Assembly (NCBI RefSeq): GCF_023277115.1
Contig: NZ_JALQCS010000001.1
Coordinates: forward strand, 2,288,001 to 2,352,000
Reading direction: 5' to 3'
Length of the DNA: 64,000 nucleotides
From: Acidithiobacillus acidisediminis
Lineage (GTDB): Bacteria > Pseudomonadota > Gammaproteobacteria > Acidithiobacillales > Acidithiobacillaceae
Made by a program: the position numbers and the translations under genes. The notes beneath the pieces are model-generated. The model searched no databases and was not told the origin of the DNA. It saw only the letters and a program-made list of their open reading frames with translations. This document shows positions 6,338 to 31,312 of the stretch, piece after piece. Within the stretch, counting starts at the first letter, position 1, and every line of letters starts with the position of its first letter.

Positions 6338-6343
6338 GATGAT

Positions 6344-9330: not shown

Positions 9331-9403
9331 AGTGCCCTCCCCGGATCGAGACTACCGAAAGTTCACGCTACTCCTCACCATCGGAAATGGCAACAGCTGT
9401 GAG

Positions 9404-9463
9404 CAAACTTTATTGCCCATGTCCAAACTTTATTACCCATGATCAAACTTTATTGCCTGCGAA
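9404..9463. repeat. Three 20-bp direct repeats, putative TnsB-binding sites at the transposon end
   Basis: Copies start at 9404, 9424 and 9444 with exact 20-bp periodicity. The shared core on the plus strand is CAAACTTTATTGCCCATG (second copy A for G at one position, third copy diverging after TTGCC). The array lies between tnsA and the inferred transposon terminus, as do the 22-bp TnsB sites of Tn7, four of which are packed at its right end. The match to TnsB-site function is by position and arrangement. Confidence 0.8.
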
Positions 9464-9642
9464 CACAATCCGCTGCCTTCCACGAAAGACAGTGGATTGC
9501 GCCCTCTGGTATCCGCATCGGCCCGATAATCCGTCTTGTGCTTCTCCTTGCGGCTATACACCTTTCGGTCCCGCTCCACCTTGGTCGGCAGAACCCCCAT
9601 CCGCACCTTGAGGCGCGGGAGTTTTCCTCGCAGCTTTTCCAT
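9433..9642 (-). CDS. Small basic protein, C terminus apparently replaced by transposon end
   Basis: 69 residues starting MEKLRGKLPRLKVRMGVLP, preceded by a strong ribosome-binding site (GGAGGTGAACA directly before the ATG). The first 45 residues are Arg/Lys-rich, and no defined domain is recognised. The last ten or so codons (SQAIKFDHG and neighbours) are encoded by the TnsB-site repeats of the Tn7-type element, so the original gene was probably cut by the insertion and now reads into transposon DNA. It could remain functional if the lost residues are dispensable. Confidence 0.5.
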   Translation of the reverse strand: MEKLRGKLPRLKVRMGVLPTKVERDRKVYSRKEKHKTDYRADADTRGRNPLSFVEGSGLCSQAIKFDHG

Positions 9643-9739
9643 TGTTCACCTCCGTAACCAATTGTCTCAGCCGTTCCATGGCGGATTTGCTATAGGCCAA
9701 GTTTACCACAGGCATACCCCACAGATCCTCCTCACCCAC
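9554..9739 (-). CDS. Hypothetical small island protein
   Basis: 61 residues from a GTG start, beginning MGEEDLWGMPVVNLAYSKS. The N-terminal 35 residues read as plausible coding sequence (SAMERLRQLVTEV helix), while the Gly/Ala-rich tail overlaps the next gene's start out of frame, so the true end could differ. Box A lies directly at its 5' end (9741-9758). No family is recognised; overlap with a better-supported gene makes this weak. Confidence 0.35.
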   Translation of the reverse strand: MGEEDLWGMPVVNLAYSKSAMERLRQLVTEVNNGKAARKTPAPQGADGGSADQGGAGPKGV

Positions 9740-9740
9740 A

Positions 9741-9758
9741 GCACGGATTTTCTCGTCA
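9741..9758 (-). promoter_or_regulatory. Box A island motif, copy 1 (two mismatches)
   Basis: Minus-strand TGACGAGAAAATCCGTGC, two differences from the 18-bp consensus TGACGAGACAATCCGCGC. It abuts the start of the 61-residue ORF. See the other four copies at 10877, 12642, 15814 and 18296. Confidence 0.5.
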
Positions 9759-9816
9759 ACCAGAAAAAAGCCACCACATCAAAAAGATATGGTGGCGCGT
9801 GCTTGGTGGTGGTGGA

Positions 9817-10323
9817 CTAGAACTTCACGCGAGGGCGAGATGGTACATCAAAAGGCACCACGAACGGGATCTCGTCGTCGAAATCCATGGGAGCGGCATG
9901 ACCACCACCGCCACCGGAACGGGCAGGCGCGGCAGATGGAGCAGAACCAGCCGATGCGCCCGCACCATCATGCTCACCGCCAGTTCCACCACTGCGTCCG
10001 CCAACCAGCTGCAAACGATCGCCGATGATCTCGGTCGTGTAGCGATCCTGGCCTTCCTTATCGGTCCACTTGCGCGTCTGCAGCTTCCCTTCGATGTAGG
10101 CCATACTTCCCTTTTTCAGGTACTCGCCAGCAACCTCGGCGATGCGCCCGAAGAGCGCGACTCGATGCCACTCGGTATTTTCTACCTTGTTTCCATCTTT
10201 ATCCTTGTAGGTTTCCGACGTTGCAATTGCCAGATTGGCAACTGCCTTACCGTCGGGCATATACCGCATCTCGGGGTCCCGCCCCAAGTGGCCCAAAATG
10301 ATTACACGATTTACACCTGCCAT
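9817..10323 (-). CDS. ssb: Single-stranded DNA-binding protein (mobile-element copy)
   Basis: 168 residues. The OB fold is evident in the first 110 residues ([64 protein letters not shown]), followed by a Gly/Ala/Ser-rich linker. SSB normally ends in an acidic tip DDDIPF that recruits other replication proteins; here DFDDEIPF is followed by 14 more residues ([14 protein letters not shown]). The start ATG has AGGAG ten bases upstream. Island and plasmid SSBs protect transferred single strands; neighbours are DNA-processing genes. Confidence 0.95.
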
Positions 10324-10356
10324 GACTGCATTCTCCTAAAAATGAAACACCAAGAC

Positions 10357-10380
10357 GGTATAGCGCCGACCCATGGCGAC
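10357..10380 (-). promoter_or_regulatory. Box B promoter element upstream of ssb
   Basis: Minus-strand CGCCATG-N7-GCTATACC, about 35 bases before the ssb start. The terminal GCTATACC resembles a -10 hexamer (TATACC). The same arrangement occurs at 15777-15800 and 18254-18277. Confidence 0.55.
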
Positions 10381-10391
10381 AAGAAAAAAGG

Positions 10392-10658
10392 CTATTCCGT
10401 CAGGTATCGGCGGATATCCGAGCCAGGAACATTGCGCCCTGCCTTTTCCCGACGCCCAGCGCACTCCACACAACGAACCGCATGGACAGCTTCTACGCGC
10501 GCGGGAGGGATCGTGTCTCCACAATCCAGGCAGTACCGGCCATGCTCATCTTCATCTGGTTCTTCCACATCCACAGCAATACGCAACCGTGCGATTGCCG
10601 CTTCCCGTTCCGCTTCCTCAAAATGGGAAGCGATGTCTCCCTCATCCCCCTGTAACAA
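10392..10658 (-). CDS. TraR/DksA-type C4 zinc-finger protein
   Basis: 88 residues. The C-terminal half has the four-Cys finger of the family (CLDCG near residue 43 and CVEC near 63) after an acidic helical N terminus (EEAEREAAIARLRIAVDVEEPDEDE in two parts). TraR proteins of conjugative elements and phages bind RNA polymerase through the secondary channel and imitate DksA with ppGpp. The start is TTG, with AGGAGG six bases upstream, placed just behind the stop of the 55-residue ORF, so both are co-transcribed. Function is by family only. Confidence 0.85.
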   Translation of the reverse strand: MLQGDEGDIASHFEEAEREAAIARLRIAVDVEEPDEDEHGRYCLDCGDTIPPARVEAVHAVRCVECAGRREKAGRNVPGSDIRRYLTE

Positions 10659-10667
10659 AGGTGCCTC

Positions 10668-10835
10668 CTAGTATCGAATGACAAACTTCACCAAAAACAA
10701 ATCACGCCCTTGCTGCGCCAGGCGCTTGCAGATTTTTGCTGCACGGGTCTTCGGGCGAAGTTTCATCCCCAAAGACTTTGAATACAGACTACCACCAGCA
10801 AACTCCCGAATCTCGTATAGCGTCTTGCTTTTCAT
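10668..10835 (-). CDS. Hypothetical 55-residue island protein
   Basis: Starts MKSKTLYEIREFAGG at an ATG with GGAGG five to eight bases upstream; a longer in-frame reading to 10910 lacks such a site and crosses box A. The protein is basic, with an Arg/Lys-rich middle (RPKTRAAKICKRLAQQGRD). No family is recognised. Its stop is followed at once by the ribosome-binding site of the TraR/DksA gene. Confidence 0.6.
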   Translation of the reverse strand: MKSKTLYEIREFAGGSLYSKSLGMKLRPKTRAAKICKRLAQQGRDLFLVKFVIRY

Positions 10836-10876
10836 CAGCGTTCCTCCAAACAATCGTGATGCTTCGCCTATCCTAA

Positions 10877-10894
10877 GCGCAGATTGTCTCGTCA
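10877..10894 (-). promoter_or_regulatory. Box A island motif, copy 2
   Basis: Minus-strand TGACGAGACAATCTGCGC, one difference from consensus, 41 bases upstream of the 55-residue gene. Preceded by T, which makes TTGACG, a good -35 hexamer, but no convincing -10 follows at 17 bases (GATAGG). Confidence 0.65.
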
Positions 10895-10913
10895 AGACGG
10901 AATATTCCACCAG

Positions 10914-12602
10914 CTACGCAACATGCTCCAATAAAAGACTGGATTGCGCACCTTCAGCATGATCAATAGAGGCATTCCAATCCATGTGGTAGCCAAGCTC
11001 TTTTTGCGTGCTTTCCAGTGCTTCGGAAATTTTTTCTTCTTTGCTTTCCTTGCCCTCCCATCGAGCAAGAGATACCCGCTTCATGGCCTTGTCGGAGATC
11101 TTCTCCGCATCCGCATACTGTGCCCAGAAGCCTTCGTTCTCGCCCCCCGGAATCCAGGACCGGGCACGGCCAACCAACAGATTCAGCCGGTCAATGAGGT
11201 CAGGGCGCGTTGGGAAGAAATGGATCGTACCGATTCCTGGGTAAAACCGTACATCCATGTACGAACAGGAAACTCTCTCTCCGTCGCGCAGGTTTTGAAA
11301 GCTGCTCGTCCCCTCTTCGAATACCGATTCCAGAGAAATTTCCGGTTCCGTTTTTCCGTCGAGAATAGCAAAGGCACGATCCAGATCTTTCAGACTCTGC
11401 ATTTCGCTCCAACCAAGGCCACGCCTCCACCCCTCCAGAGAGAATCCACCAAGGATGAAACGCTTGTTGCGAATCCGCATGCCTACCCGGTGCTTGGCGT
11501 TGGACTTCCAGGGGCGATAAAAGGCGACGTTCTCCGTTCCCTGTCGCGTGATCCGGTCGAACAGGTCCAGGCAGATGTCCAGGTGGATATCGCCTTGCGA
11601 CTCGGCCAATCCCTGCAGGAATCCATAGATGTTAGGCAAACTGAACTCCAGCTTCGAGATATGGGAAAACTCCGCACGGATTCGATCGACCGCCTTGCGC
11701 GTCAGATACTTCTCTGTCTCTGTTGCCATAAGAACCGCCGTCCAAGCCCGCTCTTTCAGGCCTTCGTACGTTTCTGCAAGGTGCTTCTGCATTGATGTCT
11801 TGCCAGAAAATCCAGTCTGCACGCGAATATTGGGGCTTTCCTTTTTCTCCGCGTTGCTCACCAGATCGGCAAGCTTGAGTCCCAGCATCCCGCGGAAGTA
11901 ATCCGCCCGCATCCGTGGGCCCACTGTAGCCAATTCAGCCTGCCAAGCCTCCTGGAAGGCGATCACCAGGTTTTTGATAGTTTCTCCGCGCAGGGCGATT
12001 TTCCCGCCAATCTCAAAGTCCACGGCCTCCGGCCCCGCATCTTTTTTGAGTCCATCCAGAAAATCGGTGCTGAAGCAGCCAGCCTCTGGCGTTTTCTTGA
12101 GCCAAACAAGGGCCACTTCCACATCGGTTTTGCGCTGTGTATCTGGGTCCAGAAAGGCCGATTTCTCGTATCGCACAGACCCGTTCTTCTCGACCAGCTT
12201 CACCAGCCGTTCGCGTTTCTCGCTGAACGGGTTGCGGATCGTCTCAGCATTGAGAATGGCGACGATCTCGCCAGACAGCAGCCCGTCCCATGCATACAGA
12301 ACGTGCTCCGCTCCATTCCGGAATGGGGGATTCATAATAATGTGCGAATACATACTGAGCCCGCCCATTTCCAGAAAATCCACACCAACCACGGTCCCCT
12401 TCTCTCGCAAAGCGGCATGTCGTCTCAAATCGATTTCTGCAGCATGGATACGATCATTCCGCAAGTCGTAGGGCTTCGCATCCAGCAGGTCGCCGTTGCC
12501 CGCCGACGGCTCAAGAACCAGAAGGAAATCCCGGTCTTGGAACAAGGACCATGCAGTACGGGCAAGATTTTCTGGTGTTGGGTAAAATTGCAGATTTTCC
12601 AT
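10914..12602 (-). CDS. N6-type DNA methyltransferase with DUF4942 domain
   Basis: 562 residues. The N-terminal 170 residues form a class I SAM methyltransferase: motif I EPSAGNGDLL at 31-40 and catalytic NPPF at 91-94, typical of N6-adenine or N4-cytosine methylases. The C-terminal half matches the DUF4942 pattern common in mobile-element methylases (VAFYRPWKSN, RNKRFILGGF, DLDRAFAILDGK, MDVRFYPGIGTIHFF). No restriction endonuclease gene is adjacent, so an orphan methylase that protects the island from host restriction is the likely role. A box A copy lies 40 bases upstream of the ATG. Confidence 0.85.
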   Translation of the reverse strand: MENLQFYPTPENLARTAWSLFQDRDFLLVLEPSAGNGDLLDAKPYDLRNDRIHAAEIDLRRHAALREKGTVVGVDFLEMGGLSMYSHIIMNPPFRNGAEHVLYAWDGLLSGEIVAILNAETIRNPFSEKRERLVKLVEKNGSVRYEKSAFLDPDTQRKTDVEVALVWLKKTPEAGCFSTDFLDGLKKDAGPEAVDFEIGGKIALRGETIKNLVIAFQEAWQAELATVGPRMRADYFRGMLGLKLADLVSNAEKKESPNIRVQTGFSGKTSMQKHLAETYEGLKERAWTAVLMATETEKYLTRKAVDRIRAEFSHISKLEFSLPNIYGFLQGLAESQGDIHLDICLDLFDRITRQGTENVAFYRPWKSNAKHRVGMRIRNKRFILGGFSLEGWRRGLGWSEMQSLKDLDRAFAILDGKTEPEISLESVFEEGTSSFQNLRDGERVSCSYMDVRFYPGIGTIHFFPTRPDLIDRLNLLVGRARSWIPGGENEGFWAQYADAEKISDKAMKRVSLARWEGKESKEEKISEALESTQKELGYHMDWNASIDHAEGAQSSLLLEHVA

Positions 12603-12641
12603 CGTTTCCCCGCCATCAATTCTGAGTCAGATTCACCCTTG

Positions 12642-12659
12642 GCGCGGATTGTCTCGTCA
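12642..12659 (-). promoter_or_regulatory. Box A island motif, copy 3 (exact)
   Basis: Exact TGACGAGACAATCCGCGC on the minus strand. Its first three bases are the stop codon of the upstream uracil-DNA glycosylase gene, and its end is 40 bases before the methyltransferase start. Confidence 0.7.
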
Positions 12660-13286
12660 GCCGGGGATCGTTGGTTTTGCCCGCAGGAAACTCGCGGCTT
12701 TCCGTACCACTTCCTCTCCGATTGCGCTCCATTTGCGGCCATCTGGAGCATTGCGGTTCCACGCCAGTGGGCTTGTGTGGGGCATGGCGTAGAGCCGTGC
12801 CCCACGAGGCCAAGCCGCCCGCAAATCTTCCCGGTACAGGCATGCGGCTTTTTGGGGGTCGTGGCCATTGGCATCCAGTGTCCCAATGTTGCTCTCCAGT
12901 TTCGCAATTCCCGTCAGGGCAGCAATGGCTGTAGCCCCGACGGTCAGCACCACTTCTGGCCTTGCATTGGCAATCGTCCCTGCCAGATAGGGCAGGCAAT
13001 TCGCGATTTCCTGATTCGTCGGCTTCCGATTCCCCTCTGGCCGACAGCGCACGATATTGGCGCACCCATAGTCATAGCCGCGTCGCAAGCCGTATTCTTC
13101 CAGCAGGCGATGTAGGGTCCGCCCTGCCCTGCCTACAAAGCCCTTGCCCTGAGCGTCCTCATCGGCCCCTGGCGCCTCGCCAATGACCAGCAGGCGACAG
13201 GAACGACCAAAATCTGGCAGGTCCGGCATGACCACTTGGGTGCGAGAAGCACAAAGGGACGGGCAACGAGTGCAGTCGCTAATCAT
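12657..13286 (-). CDS. Uracil-DNA glycosylase, family 4/5-like iron-sulfur type
   Basis: 209 residues from MISDCTRCPSLCASRTQ. The N-terminal Cys pair (CTRCPSLC) and later cysteines (NIVRC, NCLPYL region) fit the 4Fe-4S ligands of family 4 enzymes. Catalytic motif A is IGEAPGADEDAQGKGFVGRAG (split: IGEAPGADED, GKGFVGRAG) and the C-terminal motif is HTSPLAWN. The enzyme removes uracil arising from cytosine deamination, or dUTP misincorporation. The ATG overlaps the end of the upstream membrane-protein gene, so it belongs to the operon starting at the helicase. Confidence 0.88.
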   Translation of the reverse strand: MISDCTRCPSLCASRTQVVMPDLPDFGRSCRLLVIGEAPGADEDAQGKGFVGRAGRTLHRLLEEYGLRRGYDYGCANIVRCRPEGNRKPTNQEIANCLPYLAGTIANARPEVVLTVGATAIAALTGIAKLESNIGTLDANGHDPQKAACLYREDLRAAWPRGARLYAMPHTSPLAWNRNAPDGRKWSAIGEEVVRKAASFLRAKPTIPG

Positions 13287-13650
13287 GATGATCTTCCCGC
13301 AATGGATGATCGATAAAAAATATGATCCGGTCCAATTCACCCCAGGTTGGGTGCCGCTCCTGGCCGCAGATTGCAACCCAAGAGCACCGTACCGCATCGA
13401 ACCTGGATGCTTCACTGCGCAAGATGTGCATGGCCGCATCGCTTACCGGCTGATCGCTCCAAACCACCCGCACCAACCAAAGGATTGCGGTAATGCAGAG
13501 CAGGGCAACACCAAGGCCCAAAATGACCGCGCTCCAAGGATGCAGAAAATCTCTCTGGTACCCGGTAATGACACCCATACATCCAAGGGTAAAGGTGTAA
13601 ATCTCAATCCACGGGAACGGCGCGTGTGGGCCGGGAAAGGTGTATCTCAT
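13279..13650 (-). CDS. Small integral membrane protein, unknown function
   Basis: 123 residues from MRYTFPGPHAPFPW. Two hydrophobic segments are clear, about residues 15-35 (IEIYTFTLGCMGVITGY) and 42-65 (AVILGLGVALLCITAILWLV), followed by a soluble C-terminal tail of about 55 residues. The ATG overlaps the previous gene's stop (ATGA), with GGAGC upstream. No family is recognised. Confidence 0.65.
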   Translation of the reverse strand: MRYTFPGPHAPFPWIEIYTFTLGCMGVITGYQRDFLHPWSAVILGLGVALLCITAILWLVRVVWSDQPVSDAAMHILRSEASRFDAVRCSWVAICGQERHPTWGELDRIIFFIDHPLREDHHD

Positions 13651-13832
13651 GAAAGAAGCTCCAACAGAGTGCGATGATCCTCTACCGCAATCCACAGCGC
13701 GGCTATAGTGAGCCAAAAGCTCTCGGCAAACATGGCAGCATCATTATCCATAAGGCCCTGCATACCTTCGCCCAAGGCCAGAGAAAGGCCAGTCATGGTG
13801 CAGAGCAGGCGGAGCAGGACCATCGTAGCCAT
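13647..13832 (-). CDS. Small membrane protein, 61 residues
   Basis: One or two hydrophobic segments (MVLLRLLCTMTGLSLALG and ESFWLTIAALWIAV). It starts one base after the stop of the zinc-ribbon gene and overlaps the next gene by four bases, so translation is coupled. Unknown function; conserved packing with neighbours is the main evidence that it is real. Confidence 0.55.
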   Translation of the reverse strand: MATMVLLRLLCTMTGLSLALGEGMQGLMDNDAAMFAESFWLTIAALWIAVEDHRTLLELLS

Positions 13833-13833
13833 C

Positions 13834-14187
13834 TCACAAATCTTTCACAGATGGCCACTTCCGCCGTATTTTCCCTTCTCGGTCACCACCGCACCGCTTG
13901 CAGAGGCCTGTTTCCTTGGCGCAGTCTCGGCACAAGATATCAGTGGCCGTGCTGCTGTAGACCTGCTCCTTTCCACAGCACATGCACGGCTCTGTGGTGA
14001 TAGCTTGCCCACCAATGCAACTGCCGTAGTAGCAGATTTGGCATAGGCCAGACTGTACCCGATTCTGATGCTCTGGGTCCGTGCGCAGCTTGTCGGCAAA
14101 GTCGATAGCCCGCTGCATACGGTCTTTCGATGCGCGGGTCCAGGATTCCATATTGGCTGCGCTCATGATCCTGCGTTTACGCTCCAT
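13834..14187 (-). CDS. Cys-rich zinc-ribbon protein, unknown function
   Basis: 117 residues from MERKRRIMSAANMES, chosen because GGAG lies seven bases before this ATG. The C-terminal half has four CxxC-like pairs (CQICYYGSC, CMCCG, CRDC, CKRCG), suggesting two zinc ribbons. It follows the helicase gene by 18 bases in the same operon. No family could be named. Confidence 0.65.
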   Translation of the reverse strand: MERKRRIMSAANMESWTRASKDRMQRAIDFADKLRTDPEHQNRVQSGLCQICYYGSCIGGQAITTEPCMCCGKEQVYSSTATDILCRDCAKETGLCKRCGGDREGKIRRKWPSVKDL

Positions 14188-14205
14188 CACAATTCTCCAC
14201 AGCAT

Positions 14206-15723
14206 TCAAACCCTCAACCCTGCATAATCCGTCGGCTGCCTAAGCGTATGGATTGCACGAGTCTTGGCGACATATAGCAATCGCTTTTCCTCATCACTCT
14301 CAAGCCTTTTCTTGTTGAAAAGGCCATCAGAAAGACAGACGGAATCGAACTCCATCCCCTTGCTTTTGTGAGCCGTAATGACAATACGATCACAGGACTT
14401 CCATGCATCCTTGTCGCCATCCAGATCCACAGAGGAATCCATGACGGACTGCAGCCCGTCAACGCCATAGTCGTCGACCAGCTTCAACAACATCTTGATA
14501 TCGTTTCCTTCACTTGACCCCGCGTGTTCTCGTAACTCATCCTCTGACTTGAAAAGCGCGAATTGCCCTGATGGCTCACCATCCACCAGTTTCTGATAAT
14601 CTCGGAGGAAAGCGCGGATTCCGGCTTTCCCACTAACACCAACCCGCTGCTTGTCAGACAATCCACTCATGGCTCGGTCGATGGCCTCGGCATTGGTGCG
14701 CACAATGGTGGCACGCGAAGCCTCAGTAGATTTGCCAGTGAACACTTTTGATGTTCTGTCCGGGCGTCCCTCCAGAAAGTATTTTGCCCCCAAGCTCTGC
14801 AACACCTGGTTTGCGTCGTCGGCCACCGCCTGCCCAAAGCGGAAGCTCATGGTCAAAGGCGTCTCCGGTAGATCGAGAGACTGCATGGCGTTCTTCGCCC
14901 CGCGCCACTCGTAGATCTGCTGGAATGCATCACCCACATAAAAAACCGGGATCTTCTGTGCCGTCGTCAATAGCAACATCAGTCCGTCAGCATCTTGCGC
15001 CTCATCAAACAGGATGTAGTCGTAGCGAAAGCCAGCAGCGTTAAGTTTTGGGGACGAAAGCACGAATTCCCGAAGATAGAGGTCATGCGTCACGGGGAAA
15101 TCACTTTTAGGATTGAGCATTTCCCCCAATGCCCGCTTGGCAAGTTCTATAGCCTGATCGCGAATCTTGTAGCAGGTTTTGCAGTTTTGCTCGTTCTCTG
15201 CCAGCTTCTGGTTGATCTCGGTTTTGAGGCTCTGGTTCTCACCACAAGAGGCAAAGATTGCCTCCAATTCCCGACGCTCAGCGAAAATGGCCTTGCAGGC
15301 ATCATTCCATGCCACGTGTTCCTTCGTAATCTGTGCATCCGAGGTGCGCAGAAACCTGGAGAGAGTGCCTAATGCCACTTCCCCTATGGCGTAGCTGTAA
15401 TCTCCGGTGACCCCGAATCTGGAGCGAAGGTAGGAAGCATTCAGGCGCTTGTTCAGTCGGGCGCCGTATTTGCGTCCAAACCCCGCAAAAGCCAGCGAGT
15501 GAAACGTCCGTGCCTGGCATGCAGAACCCTCGAACTTCCTTTGTGCCTCTGTGGCGATTGCCTTGTTGAAAGACAGGTAAAGCCCCCGCTTTTGCCCGAG
15601 TTCCTGCGCAATCGCGGCGAGAGTGGTGGTTTTGCCGGTCCCGGCCAGGGCAGAGACCTTGAAGCTCTGCATTTTCTTGGCCATGGCAACCGCCTTGCGC
15701 TGTTCTTGAGTAAGGGCAAACAT
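14206..15723 (-). CDS. UvrD/Rep-type superfamily 1 helicase
   Basis: 505 residues. Q-motif-like N terminus (LTQEQRKAVA), Walker A ALAGTGKTTT at about residues 29-38, motif Ia FNKAIATEAQRKF, motif II DEAQDADGLML near 265, motif III GDAFQQIYEWRGA, and a C-terminal motif V/VI region (VITAHKSKGMEFDSV, KRLLYVAKTRA). Shorter than UvrD (about 720), with reduced 2A/2B domains, as in FBH1-like and mobile-element helicases. It is the first gene of the operon; box A and box B lie 90 and 55 bases upstream. Role in island replication or repair is inferred. Confidence 0.88.
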   Translation of the reverse strand: MFALTQEQRKAVAMAKKMQSFKVSALAGTGKTTTLAAIAQELGQKRGLYLSFNKAIATEAQRKFEGSACQARTFHSLAFAGFGRKYGARLNKRLNASYLRSRFGVTGDYSYAIGEVALGTLSRFLRTSDAQITKEHVAWNDACKAIFAERRELEAIFASCGENQSLKTEINQKLAENEQNCKTCYKIRDQAIELAKRALGEMLNPKSDFPVTHDLYLREFVLSSPKLNAAGFRYDYILFDEAQDADGLMLLLTTAQKIPVFYVGDAFQQIYEWRGAKNAMQSLDLPETPLTMSFRFGQAVADDANQVLQSLGAKYFLEGRPDRTSKVFTGKSTEASRATIVRTNAEAIDRAMSGLSDKQRVGVSGKAGIRAFLRDYQKLVDGEPSGQFALFKSEDELREHAGSSEGNDIKMLLKLVDDYGVDGLQSVMDSSVDLDGDKDAWKSCDRIVITAHKSKGMEFDSVCLSDGLFNKKRLESDEEKRLLYVAKTRAIHTLRQPTDYAGLRV

Positions 15724-15776
15724 TTCATCTCCGCTTCGTTGTCCTGCAGACGTAGTGCAGGCTGCCTACCAGTTAC

Positions 15777-15800
15777 GGTATAGCAACTAGCCATGGCGGC
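15777..15800 (-). promoter_or_regulatory. Box B promoter element upstream of the helicase
   Basis: Minus-strand CGCCATG-N7-GCTATACC with an extended -10 (TTGCTATACC) located 55 bases before the helicase ATG; box A lies a further 14 bases upstream. Confidence 0.6.
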
Positions 15801-15813
15801 CCGCTCAACTACT

Positions 15814-15831
15814 GCGCGGATTGTCTCGTCA
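15814..15831 (-). promoter_or_regulatory. Box A island motif, copy 4 (exact)
   Basis: Exact TGACGAGACAATCCGCGC. Start-to-start distance to the TATACC hexamer of box B is 49 bases, a position suited to an activator site upstream of the -35 region. Confidence 0.7.
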
Positions 15832-15869
15832 GAGATGAGGTGGAGACCCCTTGTGATACTAGACGATCA

Positions 15870-16271
15870 TCATTCAATTTCAATATTTTTGATGATCTTC
15901 CTCTTGATCTCAGAGATAAACCGGCCTGCACTTGCAATGTGCTCATGCGCGCCTACTTTGTCCAAAGAGTCATAGCTGTAGTCGGCAACCAATCTTGCAC
16001 TTTCAGCCCTGGTCAGGATTTTACTCATTTCAACGCCAACTTTCCCAGTCTTTACAAAGTGCCTGGAAAACTCAGAGATCAAACCACTATGAGACCTAAT
16101 ATTTTCCGCTCCCTGCACTCTCTGATGAATCAAAGCAGCTTTTGCAGCGTCTAGCATTGCATAGTACGCACGATTTACCGAACCATTATAGTCTTCGGCA
16201 TTATACAGAGTTATAGCAGACTTGAATGCTACATCAGCTTTGGACATAAGCTCATTAGATAAACTTTTCAT
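15870..16271 (-). CDS. HEPN-domain protein of an MNT/HEPN toxin-antitoxin pair
   Basis: 133 residues, helical, with the family's NRAYYAMLDAAKAAL stretch near residue 33 and HSGLISEFSRHFVKTG near 62, then a second helix pair (LTRAESARLVADYSYDS). HEPN proteins are usually ribonuclease toxins or their relatives. The start overlaps the nucleotidyltransferase stop by four bases, the standard layout. Its coding sequence is clearly richer in A/T than its neighbours, which suggests separate acquisition. Whether the RNase motif is intact cannot be judged safely from the sequence alone. Confidence 0.85.
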   Translation of the reverse strand: MKSLSNELMSKADVAFKSAITLYNAEDYNGSVNRAYYAMLDAAKAALIHQRVQGAENIRSHSGLISEFSRHFVKTGKVGVEMSKILTRAESARLVADYSYDSLDKVGAHEHIASAGRFISEIKRKIIKNIEIE

Positions 16272-16624
16272 AATTGGATACCCTCTCTTTTAATGTTATC
16301 CAAAAGTTCTTGATTTGTATATTTGTCTGGATGATCCCAATACTCTACTGGAACCAAAACCGTTGTAATTACGTAACCAGTTTCTAACAAGACTTCTGCA
16401 GAAAGATCTGCGAGACGCATACTCAACGCATACACTTGGCTCTGCGGAATGTTGGAAACCAAAGCAACATCAACGTCGCTATCGCTCCGTGCGTCACCAC
16501 GAGCACGACTGCCAAAAAGAATGGCCTTTTCAAAAGATACCACACCCATCGCTCCATCGATAAATCTTTGGAGCGATTGCAAAAGATCCGGTGGAATATC
16601 CTGCCTTGATTTTTTCAGTTCCAT
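16268..16624 (-). CDS. MNT-type minimal nucleotidyltransferase (antitoxin)
   Basis: 118 residues from MELKKSRQDIPP; a TTG six bases upstream is the alternative start. The nucleotidyltransferase signature GSRARGDARSDSDVDVAL is complete (GSxARG and DxD). MNT antitoxins adenylylate their HEPN partner on a conserved Tyr and so block it. Gene order antitoxin then toxin, with overlap, fits. AT-rich like its partner. Confidence 0.87.
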   Translation of the reverse strand: MELKKSRQDIPPDLLQSLQRFIDGAMGVVSFEKAILFGSRARGDARSDSDVDVALVSNIPQSQVYALSMRLADLSAEVLLETGYVITTVLVPVEYWDHPDKYTNQELLDNIKREGIQL

Positions 16625-16697
16625 AACCAAGCCTGTGACACCAGTAGCCGTCTCTCATTGTACCGCGAAATCAATATTCTCCCTACAAACGAAGTCT

Positions 16698-17636
16698 TTA
16701 GAACCGCGAAAACCAGCCCTTGGCCTTGGCTACCAAGCCACCAACGCCACCACCAGCCATCTTCCAGTCCTGATTGAACTGCGCTTGCAGATTCCCGATG
16801 TCGCTCCCGTTCAGCAGCAGGCCCATCTCCCGGTTCTGCTCCAGACTGGTCTGGGTGAAGTTCTCGGAACCAATGAAAGCCAAGGAACGTCCCACGATCA
16901 TCTTGGCGTGCATGTAGATGGGGCTCTTGGGCAGCAGGCGAACCTGACACCCATGCGCCTTGAGAAAGTCCACATCGCGTTGATCCGCGCTATTGATGCT
17001 GGCCGGCAGTATCAGCCGAAGATCCTTGCCCTTCGCCGCCAGGGCATCAAGGATCGGGCGGTAGGGGCCAAGCTCTTCCGACTCAACACTGATCGGTCCT
17101 GGCTGATTGATGACCTGCAATAACTGTCCGGCTGAACTCCCGGGAGAAACGACGAGAACTCGATGCGCATAGGCTGGCGCCCTGCGGTTGTTCCAGTCGG
17201 CATTGAAAACAGCGTTCGCCGCCTGCACCACGGCGCGGTTGCTCGTGACATAGAGATACTCCCGGTTCTTGTGGAATGCGGACCAATCGAAGTTGGCGGT
17301 GCCAACCTCGCATTCATGCCCGTTGCAGACGTACTTTGCGTGCATGAAGGCGTAATGGTCACCATGGCTGGTGAAACGGTACGGGGCCAATTTGAGAGTG
17401 GCTCCCGTGGCCTGGATGGCCCGCTCCTCGCGCCGTACCTGCCAGGGTTTCATGCCATAAGGTTTACCCTCTATGATGACGCGCACGTCCACGCCCCGCG
17501 CGTGAGCAGACTGCAAGGCCCGAAGGATCGGTTTGTCGGACAGGTAGTAGACTTCCAGACTCACTTCCCGCCGCGCCTGCTGGATCACCTGGATGATCGG
17601 CGCAGGACCGGCTTGTGGTTCAATGTACATTGGCAT
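16698..17636 (-). CDS. Phospholipase D-family protein with two HKD motifs
   Basis: 312 residues. Two HxK motifs are visible: HAKYVCNGHECEVGTANFD near residue 120 and HAKMIVGRSLAFIGSENFT near 245, each followed by the expected Gly/Ser-Asn. The tandem arrangement forms one active site, as in cardiolipin synthase and in PLD-type nucleases. There is no signal peptide or membrane segment, so a cytoplasmic phosphodiesterase or nuclease role is more likely than lipid synthesis. The ATG at 17636 has AGAGAGG upstream. Confidence 0.85.
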   Translation of the reverse strand: MPMYIEPQAGPAPIIQVIQQARREVSLEVYYLSDKPILRALQSAHARGVDVRVIIEGKPYGMKPWQVRREERAIQATGATLKLAPYRFTSHGDHYAFMHAKYVCNGHECEVGTANFDWSAFHKNREYLYVTSNRAVVQAANAVFNADWNNRRAPAYAHRVLVVSPGSSAGQLLQVINQPGPISVESEELGPYRPILDALAAKGKDLRLILPASINSADQRDVDFLKAHGCQVRLLPKSPIYMHAKMIVGRSLAFIGSENFTQTSLEQNREMGLLLNGSDIGNLQAQFNQDWKMAGGGVGGLVAKAKGWFSRF

Positions 17637-17648
17637 CAAAAACCTCTC

Positions 17649-17740
17649 TTAATCATGGCAATCCCCAGTATCATCAATCAGATCAAAAGGAATGCTCAAG
17701 AACATAAACATCCCACAGAGAAAAACGGCAGCCCCTAACA
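17649..17740 (-). pseudogene. 3' remnant of a membrane-protein gene cut by the IS fragment
   Basis: Only the last 29 codons survive (LGAAVFLCGMFMFLSIPFDL, then IDDTGDCHD and a stop). They form one hydrophobic helix and end 12 bases before the PLD gene, so an intact operon gene once stood here. The reading frame continues into the IS remnant to 17969 only by chance. Confidence 0.45.
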
Positions 17741-18087
17741 GACTGCTGAAAAACCGAGCGATAAAATCCACTTGGCGTCTATTGTTCTCGAAAAACGCAT
17801 CTTGAGGACAGTTCTGGACGGCTTTTGTGCGGTTTTTCTGGTCAATCTGCCCGGTTTCCCGAACTCTGGACGCAGCACCCCCATCACGCCACCCCCAGTC
17901 GTGCCATACGCACCAGATTGTAGGCGGTGGACACCAGGGTGAAGTGCAGCCCCACCCGTTCCAATCCACGAAATCGCGTTTTGCGCATCCCGCCCACGGT
18001 CTTCATCCACCCAAAGATCGACTCGATCCGCTTGCGTACACGAATGCTGATGCTGTACCCGACATGACGGGTAGTGCGGCCATCTAC
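17741..18087 (-). mobile_element. IS5-family insertion sequence remnant (3' part)
   Basis: Codes for the last 67 residues of an IS5-type transposase (TTRHVGYSISIRVRKRIE, FGWMKTVGGMRKTR, FTLVSTAYNLVRMARL) at 17884-18087. The Glu in RKRIESIFGW is the third DDE residue; the first two are lost. The presumed outer inverted repeat is GACTGCTGAAAAACCG at 17741-17756. The 5' part is missing, so it cannot move by itself. Confidence 0.75.
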
Positions 18088-18210
18088 CGCGGATCCCTTG
18101 CAAGGCCCGCGGCAATACCGTGGAACGGCATAGGGAACGCAGAGGCGTTGGCAACGGCGGAAATGGCAAGGGCAAACATGCCCGCGGTGATGGCAGTAGT
18201 CTTGGTCATA
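18085..18210 (-). pseudogene. Truncated exported protein, N-terminal fragment with signal peptide
   Basis: 41 codons from MTKTTAITAGMFALAISAVA, a typical Sec signal peptide with an ANASA cleavage site, then 15 residues and a stop at the junction with the IS remnant. It has a full upstream region with box A and box B, so it was an expressed island gene before truncation. It may still be transcribed. Confidence 0.5.
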
Positions 18211-18253
18211 AAAACTCCATGTTGTCGATGAAAGGTGCTTCTCTACCAAAGCT

Positions 18254-18277
18254 GGTATAGCAACCGGTCATGGCGCG
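18254..18277 (-). promoter_or_regulatory. Box B promoter element upstream of the truncated exported protein
   Basis: Minus-strand CGCCATG-N7-GCTATACC, with the extended TTGCTATACC, 44 bases upstream of the ATG at 18210. Confidence 0.6.
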
Positions 18278-18295
18278 AAACCCGCTTCACCGATA

Positions 18296-18313
18296 GCGCG
18301 GATTGTCTCGTCA
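18296..18313 (-). promoter_or_regulatory. Box A island motif, copy 5 (exact)
   Basis: Exact TGACGAGACAATCCGCGC, preceded by TT. Paired with box B at 18254-18277, five bases further from it than in the helicase promoter. Confidence 0.7.
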
Positions 18314-18480
18314 AAGGGTTTTGGGGATGGAGTGATATGCGGATCCGGCCTGTGCCAGACTGTGCCATATTTGTACCATGCACAGCGCGTAAGTGCCTGT
18401 TTTGTGGTCTTGAGTGACAGGATTTCGCCGTTGGCAGACGGGCTAACCTGTTGATAAATAAGATATTATATTAGCAAATC

Positions 18481-18530
18481 ACCGATTTGTAATCAGAAGG
18501 TCACGAGTTCGATTCTTGTTGCCGGCACCA
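18481..18530 (+). repeat. 3' fragment of tRNA-Thr(TGT): island attachment site
   Basis: Contains the 3' side of the anticodon arm around TTTGTAA (anticodon TGT), the variable loop, a T arm with the GTTCGATT loop and stem pairs ACGAG/CTTGT, the 3' acceptor strand TGCCGGC and ACCA. No matching 5' acceptor strand or D arm lies upstream, so it is not a complete tRNA. A 3' fragment of this size is the usual product of integration into a tRNA gene. Confidence 0.8.
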
Positions 18531-18713
18531 ATAATAACAAATAACTACTCCAATCTCTTTTAAATCATTTCCCTGCCCGTAGACACCTCGTAGACGCTTG
18601 GAGCCCAATTCGTTCTGTCAGCGTGCAAGGCAAGATACGGCAGCGACAGTGAGGATCTCTCCCCCTATCGAACTTATCGTTATCCACACTCCACGGCAGA
18701 TTGAGGCAGCAGC

Positions 18714-19619
18714 TCAGATCACTTCCACTCCCTGCGGTAAATTCGCTTGGAGAATCGCGGCAAGTTGGTCGAAGATTTCAGATGTCGGGGCACGTCTGCG
18801 CCAGACCAGGGAAATGGTCCTTCCCGGCCCGGGCTTGGTGAATGGCCGGATTTCCAGACTATTGCAGCGAGCACCAGACTGATCTGGAACGGCCAGTGCT
18901 GGCAGCAACGTTAGGCCGATGCCAGTGCACACCATTTGGCGCAACGTCTCCAAACTGGTCGCACGCACCTCTTCCCGCTCGCTCGAGTACCTGCCGCAGA
19001 TCTCCAGCAGTTGATCGCGCAGGCAGTGGCCTTCGTCGAGCAACAGTATGTTCTCGTTGAGGATGTCAAGGACAGTCAGGGTATTGCGTGCCCCGAGCCG
19101 GTGCCCAGCTGGCAGTGCCACATAGAATGATTCCTGGAAAAGTGACACTACTTGCAACTGTTCATCCGTTACCGGGGTCGCCAGCAGACCGGCATCAAGC
19201 TTGCCCGTGGTGAGATTTTCAAGAATCTGGGAGGTCAATTCTTCGCGCAAGAGAAGACGCAGGTTGGGACACTGCCCATGGACCACGTTCAGGGCATGGG
19301 GCAGATAGTAGGGAGCAAGAGTCGGGATGACCCCCAATCGCAGCGTTTGAATCACCGGGCCGTGTGCCTGCTTGCAGCGCTTACGGATATCCTCAGCCTG
19401 GGCAACAACATGGCGTGCGATAGGGAGGATTTCGCGCCCGATGGGGGTAAGCGCCACGTGTTTCAGGCTGCGATCAAACAGTGTCACCCCGAGAAAGTCC
19501 TCCAGTTTCTTGATCTGGGTGGACAGCGTAGACGGGGTGATGAAACAGGCCGCAGCAGCCCGGCCAAAATGCCCGTGATCCGCCAGTGCGACCAGGTATT
19601 TCAGTTCCTGCAGTGTCAT
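18714..19619 (-). CDS. oxyR: OxyR, LysR-family hydrogen peroxide sensor
   Basis: 301 residues. N-terminal winged HTH (ELKYLVALADHGHFGRAAAA, TPSTLSTQIKKLED). The redox pair falls at C199 (LDEGHCLRDQ) and C208 (LEICGR), the same numbers as E. coli OxyR, so peroxide sensing by disulfide formation is expected. Divergent from katG, its standard target. A perfect 15-bp palindrome lies ten bases upstream of the ATG, suggesting autorepression. Confidence 0.95.
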   Translation of the reverse strand: MTLQELKYLVALADHGHFGRAAAACFITPSTLSTQIKKLEDFLGVTLFDRSLKHVALTPIGREILPIARHVVAQAEDIRKRCKQAHGPVIQTLRLGVIPTLAPYYLPHALNVVHGQCPNLRLLLREELTSQILENLTTGKLDAGLLATPVTDEQLQVVSLFQESFYVALPAGHRLGARNTLTVLDILNENILLLDEGHCLRDQLLEICGRYSSEREEVRATSLETLRQMVCTGIGLTLLPALAVPDQSGARCNSLEIRPFTKPGPGRTISLVWRRRAPTSEIFDQLAAILQANLPQGVEVI

Positions 19620-19709: not shown

Positions 19710-21938
<2,229 letters not shown>

Positions 21939-22088: not shown

Positions 22089-22886
22089 ATGGCACAGATT
22101 CAACGAATCCTGACCACAGAGGATGAAGCCGAGCTCCGGGCGGCGCGGCGGATTCTGGATAATCCGGGACTGGCGGCGCGCCTGATGGATATGCTGGGCA
22201 CGCCGATTGAGCTGGGGTTGAAACGTCTTCCCAGTCAATGGCATGAGAAGCTCGGTCGCCTGACCGAGCAAGCCCTGCAGAAGGCTGCGGATGCGGCTCT
22301 GTTCTCTCTTGACGACGCGCCCTTTCGTAAAGCATCAACACGTTGGCACAAGGCCGCCGTAGCGACTTCGGGTGGTGTTGGTGGGCTCTTTGGCCTGTCT
22401 GCCCTGGCCATCGAGTTACCCATCTCCACTACCATCATGTTGCGCTCCATCATCGACATCGCCCGCAGCCAAGGGGAATCGATCAGCAGCGCCAACACGC
22501 GGGCTGCATGCCTGGAGGTCTTTGCCATGGGCAGCCCGCATAGTCGCGAGGATGATCGCGCGGAAGCAGGCTATTACGCGACACGCTTTGCTTTGAGTGG
22601 CTTCATTGCGGAAGCCAGCAAAACCGTTACTGGAAGCGGTGGCGCTGTGTCGAGCGCGGCACTGGCGCTATTGCTGCGCAAAGTCGCAGAGCGTTTTGGT
22701 GTAGCAGTGACAGACAAAGCGATGGCACAGATGATTCCAGCCGCCGGTGCAATCGGCGGCGCGACGATCAATACCATCTTCATTACCCATTTTCAGGACA
22801 TGGCGACGGGTCATTTCGTCATCCGCAAACTCGAGCGCAAGTACGGCGAATCATTGATCGCTGAGGCTTACCGCGCCCTTACCTGA
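22089..22886 (+). CDS. EcsC-family protein
   Basis: 265 residues from MAQIQRILTTEDEAEL, preceded by GGGGGAG. The pattern of a charged N terminus, a Gly/Ser-rich hydrophobic helix near residue 95 (ATSGGVGGLFGLSALAIELP), then a second hydrophobic region (AAGAIGGATINTIFI) before a conserved HFQDMATGHFVIRKLE end is typical of EcsC. The biochemical role of this family is unknown; in Bacillus EcsC is encoded with an ABC exporter. Its 3' end overlaps the convergent transporter gene by 19 bases. Confidence 0.8.
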   Translation: MAQIQRILTTEDEAELRAARRILDNPGLAARLMDMLGTPIELGLKRLPSQWHEKLGRLTEQALQKAADAALFSLDDAPFRKASTRWHKAAVATSGGVGGLFGLSALAIELPISTTIMLRSIIDIARSQGESISSANTRAACLEVFAMGSPHSREDDRAEAGYYATRFALSGFIAEASKTVTGSGGAVSSAALALLLRKVAERFGVAVTDKAMAQMIPAAGAIGGATINTIFITHFQDMATGHFVIRKLERKYGESLIAEAYRALT

Positions 22887-24037
22887 CGCTGCTGCCCAGA
22901 AGAGATGGAACACGATGTGGGCAGACCCGTCTCTTCCGATAGACAAGGGGCACGGAATAGCTGACCGGTCCACATGCCGAGAAAGCTCTTGCGCGTAACC
23001 ACGATCCAGAAAAACGCGAGCAGGATGGTGAAGATCGCGCCTAGAGGCGCAAAAATCCAGAACCCCGTTTTATCCGCTAGCAGATAGGTTGCTGCATTAA
23101 AAACGCCAAGGGGGAAGGTAAAGCCCCACCAGCCCATATTGAAGGGCAATCCTTCGCGCAGATAGCGTAAGGTGAAGAATATCGCCATACACATCCACCA
23201 CAAGCCAAAACCCCAGAGAATCAGGGCTACCATCAAACCGGCCATTTGCGCAAACTGTGCCATTTGCGCAAGCGCGCCATGAAAACTGGCAAAATCTGCA
23301 TTACCCAAGGTGATCATGGCCATGGCGCCGGTGCCCAAGGGACCAAGAGTCAGCCAGCTCGAAACCGCCATATCCTGATGCGGCAATTTGTGCAAGGTAA
23401 GGCGAAGCAACAGAATGGCCAGGATGCCCATCGCTAACAAGACGGAAATGGACCAAAGAATATAGCTCATGTAAATAACGTTTTCCGCTGCTCCCACCGC
23501 CAAGTGCGGTGCCAGCAGGCCCCCACTCGCCGCAGCAACCTCCGGTGGAACGATGGGTAGGAGCCACGCAGCAGTCATTCGCTCCATGCTATGCTGATGG
23601 CTGGTAAACATGAAATACGGCACCAGCAAAACCGAAATCAGGGCCAAAAAAACATCCACCCACCAAAACGCCGTCGCGACCGCAAGACTCGCAGTACTGA
23701 GGGGCCAGATGATGAAAAATCCATTGATGATGGTGGCGAATCCCATCGGGATGGCACCGATGAACAGCGATTGCAACGGATGGTCAAACAGTCGGCGAAA
23801 ATCGCGAAAGTAAAAGACTGCCCGGCTCAAAAAGAGTAGGCTGAACAACGCAAAAAAGAAGCTGTTGATGCTCCACAATACCTGAGCCAAGTCCTGCTGG
23901 CCCCAGTGCTCGTAGGGAAAGAGCGCCAACATCAGAGCCAGAATACCCGTGCCCATGTTGGCCGTGAACCAGTTGGGTGTAAATTGACGAACGATTTGGC
24001 GCGGATCATTGCCCGGCGCAGCAGAGAGAAAGCCCAT
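22868..24037 (-). CDS. TDT/SLAC1-family transporter, possibly sulfite efflux
   Basis: 389 residues with about ten transmembrane segments. N-terminal FTPNWFTANMGTGILAL is the TDT family hallmark (yeast Ssu1, TehA, plant SLAC1), as are the GFATIINGF and MGWWGFTFPLGVF segments. Members export sulfite or carry anions and C4-dicarboxylates. In a sulfur oxidiser sulfite efflux is plausible but not shown. The Cys/Ser-rich tail after residue 360 is less conserved. Divergent from a LysR regulator, which is probably its controller. Confidence 0.8.
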   Translation of the reverse strand: MGFLSAAPGNDPRQIVRQFTPNWFTANMGTGILALMLALFPYEHWGQQDLAQVLWSINSFFFALFSLLFLSRAVFYFRDFRRLFDHPLQSLFIGAIPMGFATIINGFFIIWPLSTASLAVATAFWWVDVFLALISVLLVPYFMFTSHQHSMERMTAAWLLPIVPPEVAAASGGLLAPHLAVGAAENVIYMSYILWSISVLLAMGILAILLLRLTLHKLPHQDMAVSSWLTLGPLGTGAMAMITLGNADFASFHGALAQMAQFAQMAGLMVALILWGFGLWWMCMAIFFTLRYLREGLPFNMGWWGFTFPLGVFNAATYLLADKTGFWIFAPLGAIFTILLAFFWIVVTRKSFLGMWTGQLFRAPCLSEETGLPTSCSISSGQQRQVRAR

Positions 24038-24151
24038 TGGCAGCTCCAGTCAACGATTGGACGGGAACATTCTATAGCCGATAATATATCAAATCTAATT
24101 CATATATTTTACGTTAATGATTACTTATCCTAATTTCATGAAGGTTTGCTC

Positions 24152-25048
24152 ATGGATCGACGCCTTGACCCCAGCCTGCTGCTGATCTGGGCACAGGCCG
24201 CTCGCGCTGGCAACCTGCATCAAGCCGCGGAGCGCCTCTTTCTCACCCAGCCGGCAGTTTCCCATCGTCTCAAGCTGTTGCAAGAGCGAGTGGGTGAACC
24301 ACTCTATCGCCGCACCCATCGCGGCATCAGTCCTACCCCCATGGGCATCGCCTTGTGGCGCATTGCGGAAAGGATTGAGGTGGCTGTTGCGGAAGCCAGC
24401 AACTTGTGTACCGACAGTCAGGGGCTACTGACAGGCACAGCGCATCTTGCTGCGAGCCAGAGCAATGCCGAGGTATTACTACCCCGTGTTCTGGCACAAT
24501 TCCATCATACCTACCCAGCCATTCACCTGCAGGTCTGCTCATTGAATAGTCGCCAGGCGCGGCAGAGCAAGGAGGAATATGATCTGGTCTTTGTGGAGGA
24601 TGATCTCCCGGCGACGGAGCAGGGCGTCTGGGTACAAGAGACCCTGGTCGAAACCGAGATCGACCTGATCGTGCCCGCAAACCATCCTTGGGCACACACG
24701 GAAACAGCCATTACCCTTGAAGATCTTGAAGCTGCGGACCTCATCTGGCGCGAACCCGGCTCGGGTATTCGCGAGGCCGTTCTGCAAGCCAGCAAGGCAG
24801 CGGGCATCTCCCTGGCCATTCGTTACGAGTTCAGCGGCCTCGCTGCAATTCGGGAGGGGGTGCGCAGCGGCCTTGGTTTTGGCTTTGCCTCCCGCTACCA
24901 CGCCAATCTTGCTGCCGACCTGCGTCTGCTCCCCCTCTCGCCTCCCATTCCCCATCGCCTCTCGGTGCTGCACCGCACGGATGCCAGCCCGGCCACCCTC
25001 GCCCTCTTGCAAACCTTGCGCAGTCACCTGCAGACTGCGGAGCCATGA
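24152..25048 (+). CDS. LysR-family transcriptional regulator
   Basis: 298 residues. HTH at residues 10-60 (WAQAARAGNLHQAAERLFLT, QPAVSHRLKLLQERVGEPLY) and a LysR effector domain with IWREPGSGIREAV and GLAAIREGVRSGLGFGF, a pattern found in CbbR/YeiE-like regulators. It faces the TDT transporter across 115 bases of AT-rich DNA. The ATG is chosen over an in-frame TTG at 24146 because GAAGG lies seven bases upstream. Effector unknown; a sulfur anion is possible by context. Confidence 0.85.
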   Translation: MDRRLDPSLLLIWAQAARAGNLHQAAERLFLTQPAVSHRLKLLQERVGEPLYRRTHRGISPTPMGIALWRIAERIEVAVAEASNLCTDSQGLLTGTAHLAASQSNAEVLLPRVLAQFHHTYPAIHLQVCSLNSRQARQSKEEYDLVFVEDDLPATEQGVWVQETLVETEIDLIVPANHPWAHTETAITLEDLEAADLIWREPGSGIREAVLQASKAAGISLAIRYEFSGLAAIREGVRSGLGFGFASRYHANLAADLRLLPLSPPIPHRLSVLHRTDASPATLALLQTLRSHLQTAEP

Positions 25049-25743
25049 AATTACCTCCGCTAACCCCGGCGCGCCTGTTGCGTCGATATCAACGCTTTTT
25101 GGCCGATTGCGAGCTTGCGTCTGGCGAAATCGTGCAGGTGCACTGCCCGAATCCCGGCAGCATGCGCAGTTGTGCCGAACCTGGCCAAGCCGTTCTGCTG
25201 TCCTGGCATGGCGAGGGCAAACGGAAGCTGCCCTGGACCTGGGAGCTGTATTGGAGTGGCGCCAGTTGGGTGACGATCAATACCCAGCGCCCCAACGCGG
25301 TGGTGGCCGAAGCGCTGCAGGAGCAGCAAATCGCCGAACTGCGAGGCTACGCCACCCTGCGCAAAGAGGTGTCGTATGGCATGCGAGAGCGGGTGGATTT
25401 CCATCTGAACGACCCAGATCGTGGTCAGGTATTTTTGGAGGTGAAGTCCTGCACCCTACTGGATGAGGACGGGGTGCTCCGTTTTCCCGACGCCCGCAGC
25501 ACCCGCGCCCTGCGGCATCTGCACGCCTTGGAACAGGAGCTCCGGCACGGACACCGCGCGGTCATGCTCTTTTTGCTGGGCCGTGAAGATGGCCGAGGTT
25601 TCGCCCCCGCTGACACAATCGACCCCGAATATGGCACCGCCCTGCGTCGTGGGCGAGACCTGGGTATCGAAATCCTTGCCTACCGCAGCCGGGTCAGGCC
25701 TGATAGTATAGAGATCAGCAACGCGGAACCCTTACTCTTTTGA
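25045..25743 (+). CDS. sfsA: SfsA, DNA-binding sugar-fermentation-stimulation family
   Basis: 232 residues. Family motifs are intact: HCPNPGSMRSCAEPG near 32-46, NTQRPNAVV near 80, YGMRERVDFHL and FLEVKSCTL, FPDARSTRALRHL. The FLEVKS motif follows the PD-(D/E)xK nuclease fold. SfsA was named from overexpression effects in E. coli; its role is unknown. The start overlaps the regulator's stop (ATGA). Confidence 0.93.
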   Translation: MKLPPLTPARLLRRYQRFLADCELASGEIVQVHCPNPGSMRSCAEPGQAVLLSWHGEGKRKLPWTWELYWSGASWVTINTQRPNAVVAEALQEQQIAELRGYATLRKEVSYGMRERVDFHLNDPDRGQVFLEVKSCTLLDEDGVLRFPDARSTRALRHLHALEQELRHGHRAVMLFLLGREDGRGFAPADTIDPEYGTALRRGRDLGIEILAYRSRVRPDSIEISNAEPLLF

Positions 25744-25765
25744 TTTATCCGCGGAAGGAGTCCTG

Positions 25766-26575
25766 ATGTTACGCCGAGCCCAAACCCGTCCCCCCGTCGT
25801 CATCCACAACGCCGAAGAGATCGAGAAGATGCGTGTGGCAGGACAGCTCACCGCCATGGTCCTGAAGATGATCGCCGGTCATGTTCGTGCAGGAATCAGC
25901 ACCGGAGAGCTCGATCGCATCTGCCATGAGTATATCGTCGACGAGCTGCAAGGCATTCCTGCGCCCCTCAACTATCAACCCAGCCCCGAATATCCCCCCT
26001 TCCCCAAATCGGTCTGCATTTCCGTCAACCATGTGATCTGTCATGGAATTCCGGGGGACCGGATCGTAAAGGAGGGGGATATCCTCAACATCGACGTAAC
26101 CGTTATCAAAGACGGTTTTCATGGCGACAGCAGTAAGATGTTTCTGGTGGGTGATGTGCCCCTCAAGGCGCGGCGGGTCGTGGAAGTAGCGCACGAAAGC
26201 ATGATCCGCGGCATTGAGGTCGTCCGCCCTGGCGCCACCCTGGGCGACATCGGCCATGCTATTCAGAGCTATGCCGAGGCGCAGCACTGTTCTGTGGTCC
26301 GGGAGTTCTGCGGTCACGGTATCGGGCGCAAGTTCCACGATGAGCCGCAGATTCTGCATTATGGTGAGCCTGGCGCCGGCCAAAGCCTGGTCGCTGGGCA
26401 GACGTTTACCATCGAACCGATGATCAATGCGGGTAAACGCCATATCAAGGCCCTTCCGGATGGCTGGACCATCGTGACCAAAGACCACAGCCCATCGGCA
26501 CAATGGGAGCATACGGTCTTGGTAACGGATACCGGCTATGAGGTCCTCACCCAACTGCCCGGAGATCCACTCTGA
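25766..26575 (+). CDS. map: Methionine aminopeptidase, type I
   Basis: 269 residues (E. coli 264). Metal ligands fit the family: D in NIDVTVIKDGFHGD (two Asp), His in FCGHGIGRKFH, Glu in FTIEPMIN and Glu in QWEHTVLVT; substrate His in VICHGIP. It removes N-terminal Met from new proteins. Clear GGAAGGAG upstream. Directly precedes glnD, an arrangement seen in many proteobacteria (map-glnD). Confidence 0.96.
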   Translation: MLRRAQTRPPVVIHNAEEIEKMRVAGQLTAMVLKMIAGHVRAGISTGELDRICHEYIVDELQGIPAPLNYQPSPEYPPFPKSVCISVNHVICHGIPGDRIVKEGDILNIDVTVIKDGFHGDSSKMFLVGDVPLKARRVVEVAHESMIRGIEVVRPGATLGDIGHAIQSYAEAQHCSVVREFCGHGIGRKFHDEPQILHYGEPGAGQSLVAGQTFTIEPMINAGKRHIKALPDGWTIVTKDHSPSAQWEHTVLVTDTGYEVLTQLPGDPL

Positions 26576-31258: not shown

Positions 31259-31278
31259 TGCTTCTGCCTCCCGGCAGT

Positions 31279-31312
31279 AAAAAAATCGGCCCCACCACGC
31301 AGGTGAGGCCGA
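31279..31312 (-). terminator. Rho-independent terminator after sqr
   Basis: On the minus strand, TCGGCCTCACC (31312-31302) pairs with GGTGGGGCCGA (31296-31286) over 11 bases with one G-T, loop TGCGT, followed by seven T. It ends the sqr transcript 22 bases past the stop and before rluB. Confidence 0.9.

Follow-up and report, generated by a model that had tools for sequence, protein, structure and literature searches.

The displaced 3′ part of a tRNA-Thr(TGT) gene as the predicted attR of a 241.8-kb Trb-type ICE in Acidithiobacillus acidisediminis

The element considered here is related to ICEAcaTY.2, a mobile element of A. caldus. According to the sections of PMC3826726 (2013) that deal with them, the ICE-2 type of A. 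caldus carries an integrase, an excisionase, CI, CII, Cro, and ParAB; membership is defined by more than 90% similarity over about 100 kb to another member, and the two ICE-2 elements of this species occupy different sites. Table 2 of that paper lists ICEAcaTY.2 of A. caldus ATCC 51756 as an element of 183,318 bp at Asn-GTT with repeats of 77 and 47, and the text reports its excision (PMC3826726). Genome G013 contains a 182-kb stretch between tRNA-Asn(GTT) and a 47-nt 3′ part of the same tRNA, starting at tRNA position 30. This stretch fits ICEAcaTY.2, an identification made in the present analysis, and is used below as the reference.

The window, i.e., the whole 64,000-nt stretch that was analysed, spans C1:2288001–2352000 of a genome (G000) of 2.81 Mb in 4 contigs. 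It contains a tRNA fragment that is, as judged from the sequence, almost certainly the attR of a 241.8-kb Trb-type ICE inserted in tRNA-Thr(TGT). Insertion into a tRNA gene is a textbook case, and this is one more such ICE, a kind already well documented in this family of bacteria. Both att copies, the integrase gene, and the relation to ICEAcaTY.2 can be read directly from the DNA. In the literature searched, which includes the genome paper of strain S30A2 (PMC11021618), no description of this element was found. With the two termini of a large mobile element fixed in a recently named acidophile genus, the exact junctions are now available for an excision test. Features of the window are collected in Table 1.

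Table 1. Features of the window on either side of the predicted attR, in window coordinates
Feature	Position	Strand	Basis
Right-hand 18.5 kb of the ICE	1..18483		Lies between the two att copies
Tn7-like genes: TnsA-, TnsB-, TnsC-, and TnsD-like, and a 549-aa protein without match	1245..9330	-	Pfam
HEPN / nucleotidyltransferase gene pair	15870..16624	-	PF05168, PF01909, PADLOC PDC-S09
Last gene of the element, PLD-domain nuclease-like (DrmC-like in PADLOC)	16698..17630	-	PF13091; PADLOC DrmC 4.9e-25
Transposase remnant between PLD gene and attR	17884..18249	-	PF13751 1.4e-08
Right-end sequence alignable with the right end of ICEAcaTY.2, ~100 bp	18361..18462	+	Local alignment, score 56
Putative arm-type repeat TTTGTACCATG	18370..18380	+	Second copy 57 bp inside the other (left) element end
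Predicted attR core, displaced 3′ part of tRNA-Thr(TGT)	18484..18530	+	49-bp exact match to G000:C1:2064659-2064734
Immediate right flank	18531..18713	+	Like DNA downstream of tRNA-Thr(CGT) in the same genome: 74% over 155 bp including tRNA part
LysR-type regulator, first gene right of attR	18714..19619	-	Pfam
katG, catalase/peroxidase	19740..21938	+	TIGR00198
Chromosomal block common to congeners, ending at tRNA-Leu(TAA)	22090..55280		Methionyl aminopeptidase, tryptophanyl-tRNA synthetase, others

The original prediction described the fragment as 50 bases (18481–18530) equal to the 3′ part of a threonine tRNA, with CCA and without the 5′ half. Its nature is borne out, and its extent is corrected to 47 bases: these are identical to tRNA-Thr(TGT) positions 30–76, CCA included, whereas 18481–18483 are non-tRNA sequence, the base immediately left of 18484 being a mismatch. 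Position 30 belongs to the 5′ side of the anticodon stem. On the right, the identity continues for two bases (AT) past the tRNA, so that 18484–18532 is an exact 49-bp copy. Since ARAGORN reports no tRNA gene in the window except tRNA-Leu(TAA), the fragment alone is not a tRNA gene; it is also absent from the 47 tRNAs of the genome detected with the Rfam model. The prediction stood or fell with a second copy of the segment. A whole-genome pattern search allowing up to 3 mismatches found it at exactly two places, C1:2064688 and C1:2306484, both exact and on the same strand (a reversed control pattern gave no matches in the same search). The two copies are 241.8 kb apart and agree over the whole segment; an exact 47-bp repeat of this kind is not due to chance.

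The upstream copy is part of an intact 76-nt tRNA-Thr(TGT) (C1:2064659–2064734), 241,796 bp upstream of the fragment, which is what the proposed leftward search was expected to yield. The integrase gene predicted for that end adjoins it: C1:2064737–2065786 encodes 349 aa on the strand opposite to tRNA-Thr, and the two genes converge, the stop codon facing the tRNA at a distance of 2 bp. The protein matches PF00589 (1.6e-33), its reading frame is uninterrupted, and it shows the R, K, H-x-x-R, W, and Y residues that a tyrosine recombinase should have; this is an intact tyrosine integrase gene. Behind it, profile searches recognise an HTH_17 protein (excisionase-like by its domain match), a RecT-family protein, an S24-type (CI-like) repressor, and a CII-like protein. 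An intact tRNA, a fragment on the same contig, and an integrase inside, the three features by which the Islander definition recognises tRNA-gene islands, are all present. Joining the flanks in silico yields a whole tRNA-Thr, while joining the element ends yields no tRNA.

We infer the crossover point, integrase activity, excision, and transfer as follows. The tyrosine integrase would recombine the att site of the element with the host tRNA gene inside the shared 47-bp segment, with the crossover probably at the anticodon stem-loop. A 2018 paper reportedly ties ICE recombination in Acidithiobacillus to this very part of the tRNA. The element would bring in a new, identical 3′ part and displace the original 3′ part to the far end; tRNA-Thr would have stayed whole because the supplied part is identical. 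On excision, the two 47-bp copies would recombine, rebuild tRNA-Thr, and free a circle, which could then be transferred by the Trb-type conjugation machinery.

The gene content is consistent with such a route. Between the two att copies, 229 genes were called with a simple script, which is not a published tool, and selected proteins among them were subjected to profile searches. These matched a coupling protein (PF02534, 4.6e-86), ParA, ParB, TrbI, TrbL, the TrbE/VirB4 ATPase, pilus-type proteins, and VirB3. Both the coupling protein and the Trb/VirB mating-pair genes (TrbI, TrbL, VirB4/TrbE, VirB3, and TrbB) that characterise a Trb-type ICE are found, with matches to TrbF and TrbJ falling under the NCBIfam cut-offs. 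The relaxase candidate is RlxS-like (3.7e-53) at 181 bits, compared with a cut-off of 850. TrbB, the conjugation ATPase (L036:10615–12657 = C1:2260615–2262657), contains an intein carrying a LAGLIDADG homing endonuclease domain. The low relaxase score, the intein in TrbB, and the transposase remnant near attR would suit an island whose att sites are intact but which has lost excision or transfer. We consider this doubtful, though it is the best of the alternatives, since the integrase is open and full length, and ICEAcaTY.2, reported to excise in PMC3826726, has the same kind of ends.

Other element proteins include an ArdC anti-restriction domain, an RND efflux pump, and a metal P-type ATPase. 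Tn7-like transposition genes occur at three places, one in the window (Table 1) and two outside it (C1:2085401–2093410 and C1:2171226–2176169), with a TnsD-like match in all three; adjoining proteins of 549 and 546 aa, both without matches, may be TnsE-like. An enolase gene, the third in the genome, lies inside the ICE (C1:2206789–2208081) near complex-I-like gene clusters. It was considered as essential cargo and rejected as such: with two further enolase genes elsewhere in the genome, excision would not remove the sole copy. A simple repeat script found no CRISPR array in the region.

The right end of the element resembles that of ICEAcaTY.2 beyond the tRNA fragment itself. Both have the PLD-domain gene as the last gene, separated from the fragment by 854 bp here and by 259 bp in ICEAcaTY.2, and roughly 100 bp of the end can be aligned between them. 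The repeat TTTGTACCATG has only two exact copies in the 296-kb region, one near each element end, and ICEAcaTY.2 likewise has a pair near both ends, one copy with a single mismatch. That ICEAcaTY.2 carries this last gene and this arm sequence beside its own tRNA fragment upholds the claim that the fragment marks the end of an island. The PLD gene was also tried as a general boundary marker and rejected. A 47-nt tRNA fragment lies upstream of the PLD gene in only two of 20 loci, namely in this element and in ICEAcaTY.2 (it is missing from the other 18, one of which has a chance-like 13-nt tRNA match), so the gene alone is no marker of ends. The HEPN / nucleotidyltransferase pair next to it is probably of the toxin-antitoxin type.

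Both the DNA immediately right of the fragment (18531–18690) and the DNA downstream of tRNA-Thr(CGT) contain a pair of GTAGAC motifs about 11 bp apart, and other such pairs are found in the tRNA-Thr flanks of G003, G004, and G007; these paired repeats are possibly remains of older attachment arms. The likeness of this flank to the tRNA-Thr(CGT) downstream DNA, as if to an older arm, together with the three tns sets and IS copies inside the element, would suit a tandem or composite island, in which successive insertions at the same tRNA have left only the outermost fragment. Such a history is improbable, in our opinion, given that the genome holds only two copies of the segment even at up to 3 mismatches and that the genes at both ends correspond to those of a single related element, ICEAcaTY.2.

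The fragment was originally placed exactly between accessory and housekeeping genes. The left side of that statement stands, being mobile element, while the right side holds only roughly: a LysR-type regulator and katG come first and conserved DNA thereafter. In the genus, katG is patchy: two of the seven congeners match it at the DNA level, G007 at a distant location. The conserved block matches G002, G003, and G007 at ~73% over the stretches compared (22.09–38.0 kb and 45.1–55.28 kb). In G002 and G007, a stretch ending in tRNA-Thr separates two blocks that adjoin each other in the present genome, 110 bp apart (C1:2376355/2376465), and G003 shares the left junction. From a reading of its sequence, this stretch appears to be a cytochrome-oxidase-like cluster. 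Here, a 15-kb block ending in tRNA-Thr (C1:2049543–2064734) has another chromosomal position than in G002 and G007. With the tRNA-Thr block placed differently, the genes right of attR differ from those that follow tRNA-Thr in relatives, and taking them as simply the original chromosomal neighbour needs qualifying. Because congeners carry tRNA-Thr elsewhere, attR falls on or close to the breakpoint of a rearrangement. A simple empty-site proof was abandoned, since mapping of G002, G003, and G007 revealed this rearrangement instead; among 57 genomes, its own included, no empty site with the same flanks was found, the best congeners matching ~10–13 bp beyond the tRNA. The breakpoint might suggest that the fragment is a product of chance copying or of rearrangement and not an att site, but the start at tRNA position 30 beside the same last gene and arm sequence, an end structure common to ICEAcaTY.2, contradicts this reading and leaves it hardly any probability.

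Two further observations concern the surroundings. Left of the tRNA-Thr block, a further region (C1:1989479–2031003) holds genes related to those of the ICE, with protein identities reaching 87%. One IS21-like gene pair is found, unchanged, twice in this region and once in the ICE. At tRNA-Leu(TAA), the flanking blocks that are adjacent here are ~92 kb apart in G007, which makes this tRNA a possible island site in that genome.

The integrase of the element can be compared with relatives at other tRNA genes. Of 35 loci, two at 31% identity were dropped. In 26 of the remaining 33, a tRNA gene lies within 400 bp past the integrase stop, in all 26 cases on the opposite strand; two of the 26 (L136 and L150) are apparently the same sequence in two bins. 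Among the seven loci without a neighbouring tRNA, one contig ends first and several genes are broken. The neighbouring tRNAs belong to nine isotypes (Thr, Asn, Ala, Pro, Phe, Met, Arg, His, and Leu), and by their position we infer them to be the integrase targets; displaced fragments were looked for, and found, in this element and ICEAcaTY.2. On a tree of 19 proteins in 9 target groups, no clustering of targets was seen over all groups: 10 changes were counted against a shuffled mean of 11.0, and 59 of 200 shuffles were as low. The Arg group taken by itself came out below most of the shuffles (as low in 7 of 500), and the ingroup of 16 labelled rows shows 9 changes against a minimum of 8. We tentatively suggest that the lineage might move between tRNA targets with hardly any restriction and yet preserve a single layout, the int-attP cassette being retargeted by a swap of the 47-bp segment. 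In that layout, int would run into the tRNA with its stop a few bases off the 3′ end, and the arm site would lie in the 3′ coding end of int. If this is true, one ICE type could occupy nearly any tRNA gene. Integrases beside nine tRNA isotypes are a useful set for studying how a tRNA target changes.

Compared with known systems, the element is closest in plan to ICEAcaTY.2. Both use a tRNA target with a 47-bp displaced part from position 30, both have the integrase as the first gene (79% identical) and the PLD-domain gene as the last (69% identical), and counterparts of the RecT-, CI-, and CII-like, Par, and Trb genes are common to them. They differ in the target, tRNA-Thr(TGT) here and tRNA-Asn(GTT) there, and largely in cargo. 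ICEAcaTY.2 has counterparts of 61 of the 229 genes (at least 40% identity over half the length), whereas a control 40-kb A. caldus stretch, smaller than the 182-kb element, has none. Of the ICE-2 features covered by the profile searches, integrase, CI, CII, and ParAB are found, and the excisionase as an HTH_17 domain only. With a DNA identity of 71–76% in the compared element parts, as against 90%, the element is related to the ICE-2 type but falls outside it. The iMGE10 of A. ferrooxidans CCM 4253 is likewise a Trb-type ICE in tRNA-Thr(TGT), according to its description in PMC10322971, whose table gives it 81 kb as compared with 242 kb for the present element. As for the tRNA-gene islands of Islander, as described in PMC4383910, the same plan of a restored tRNA, a displaced fragment opposite, and an integrase inside is found here, with no difference seen.
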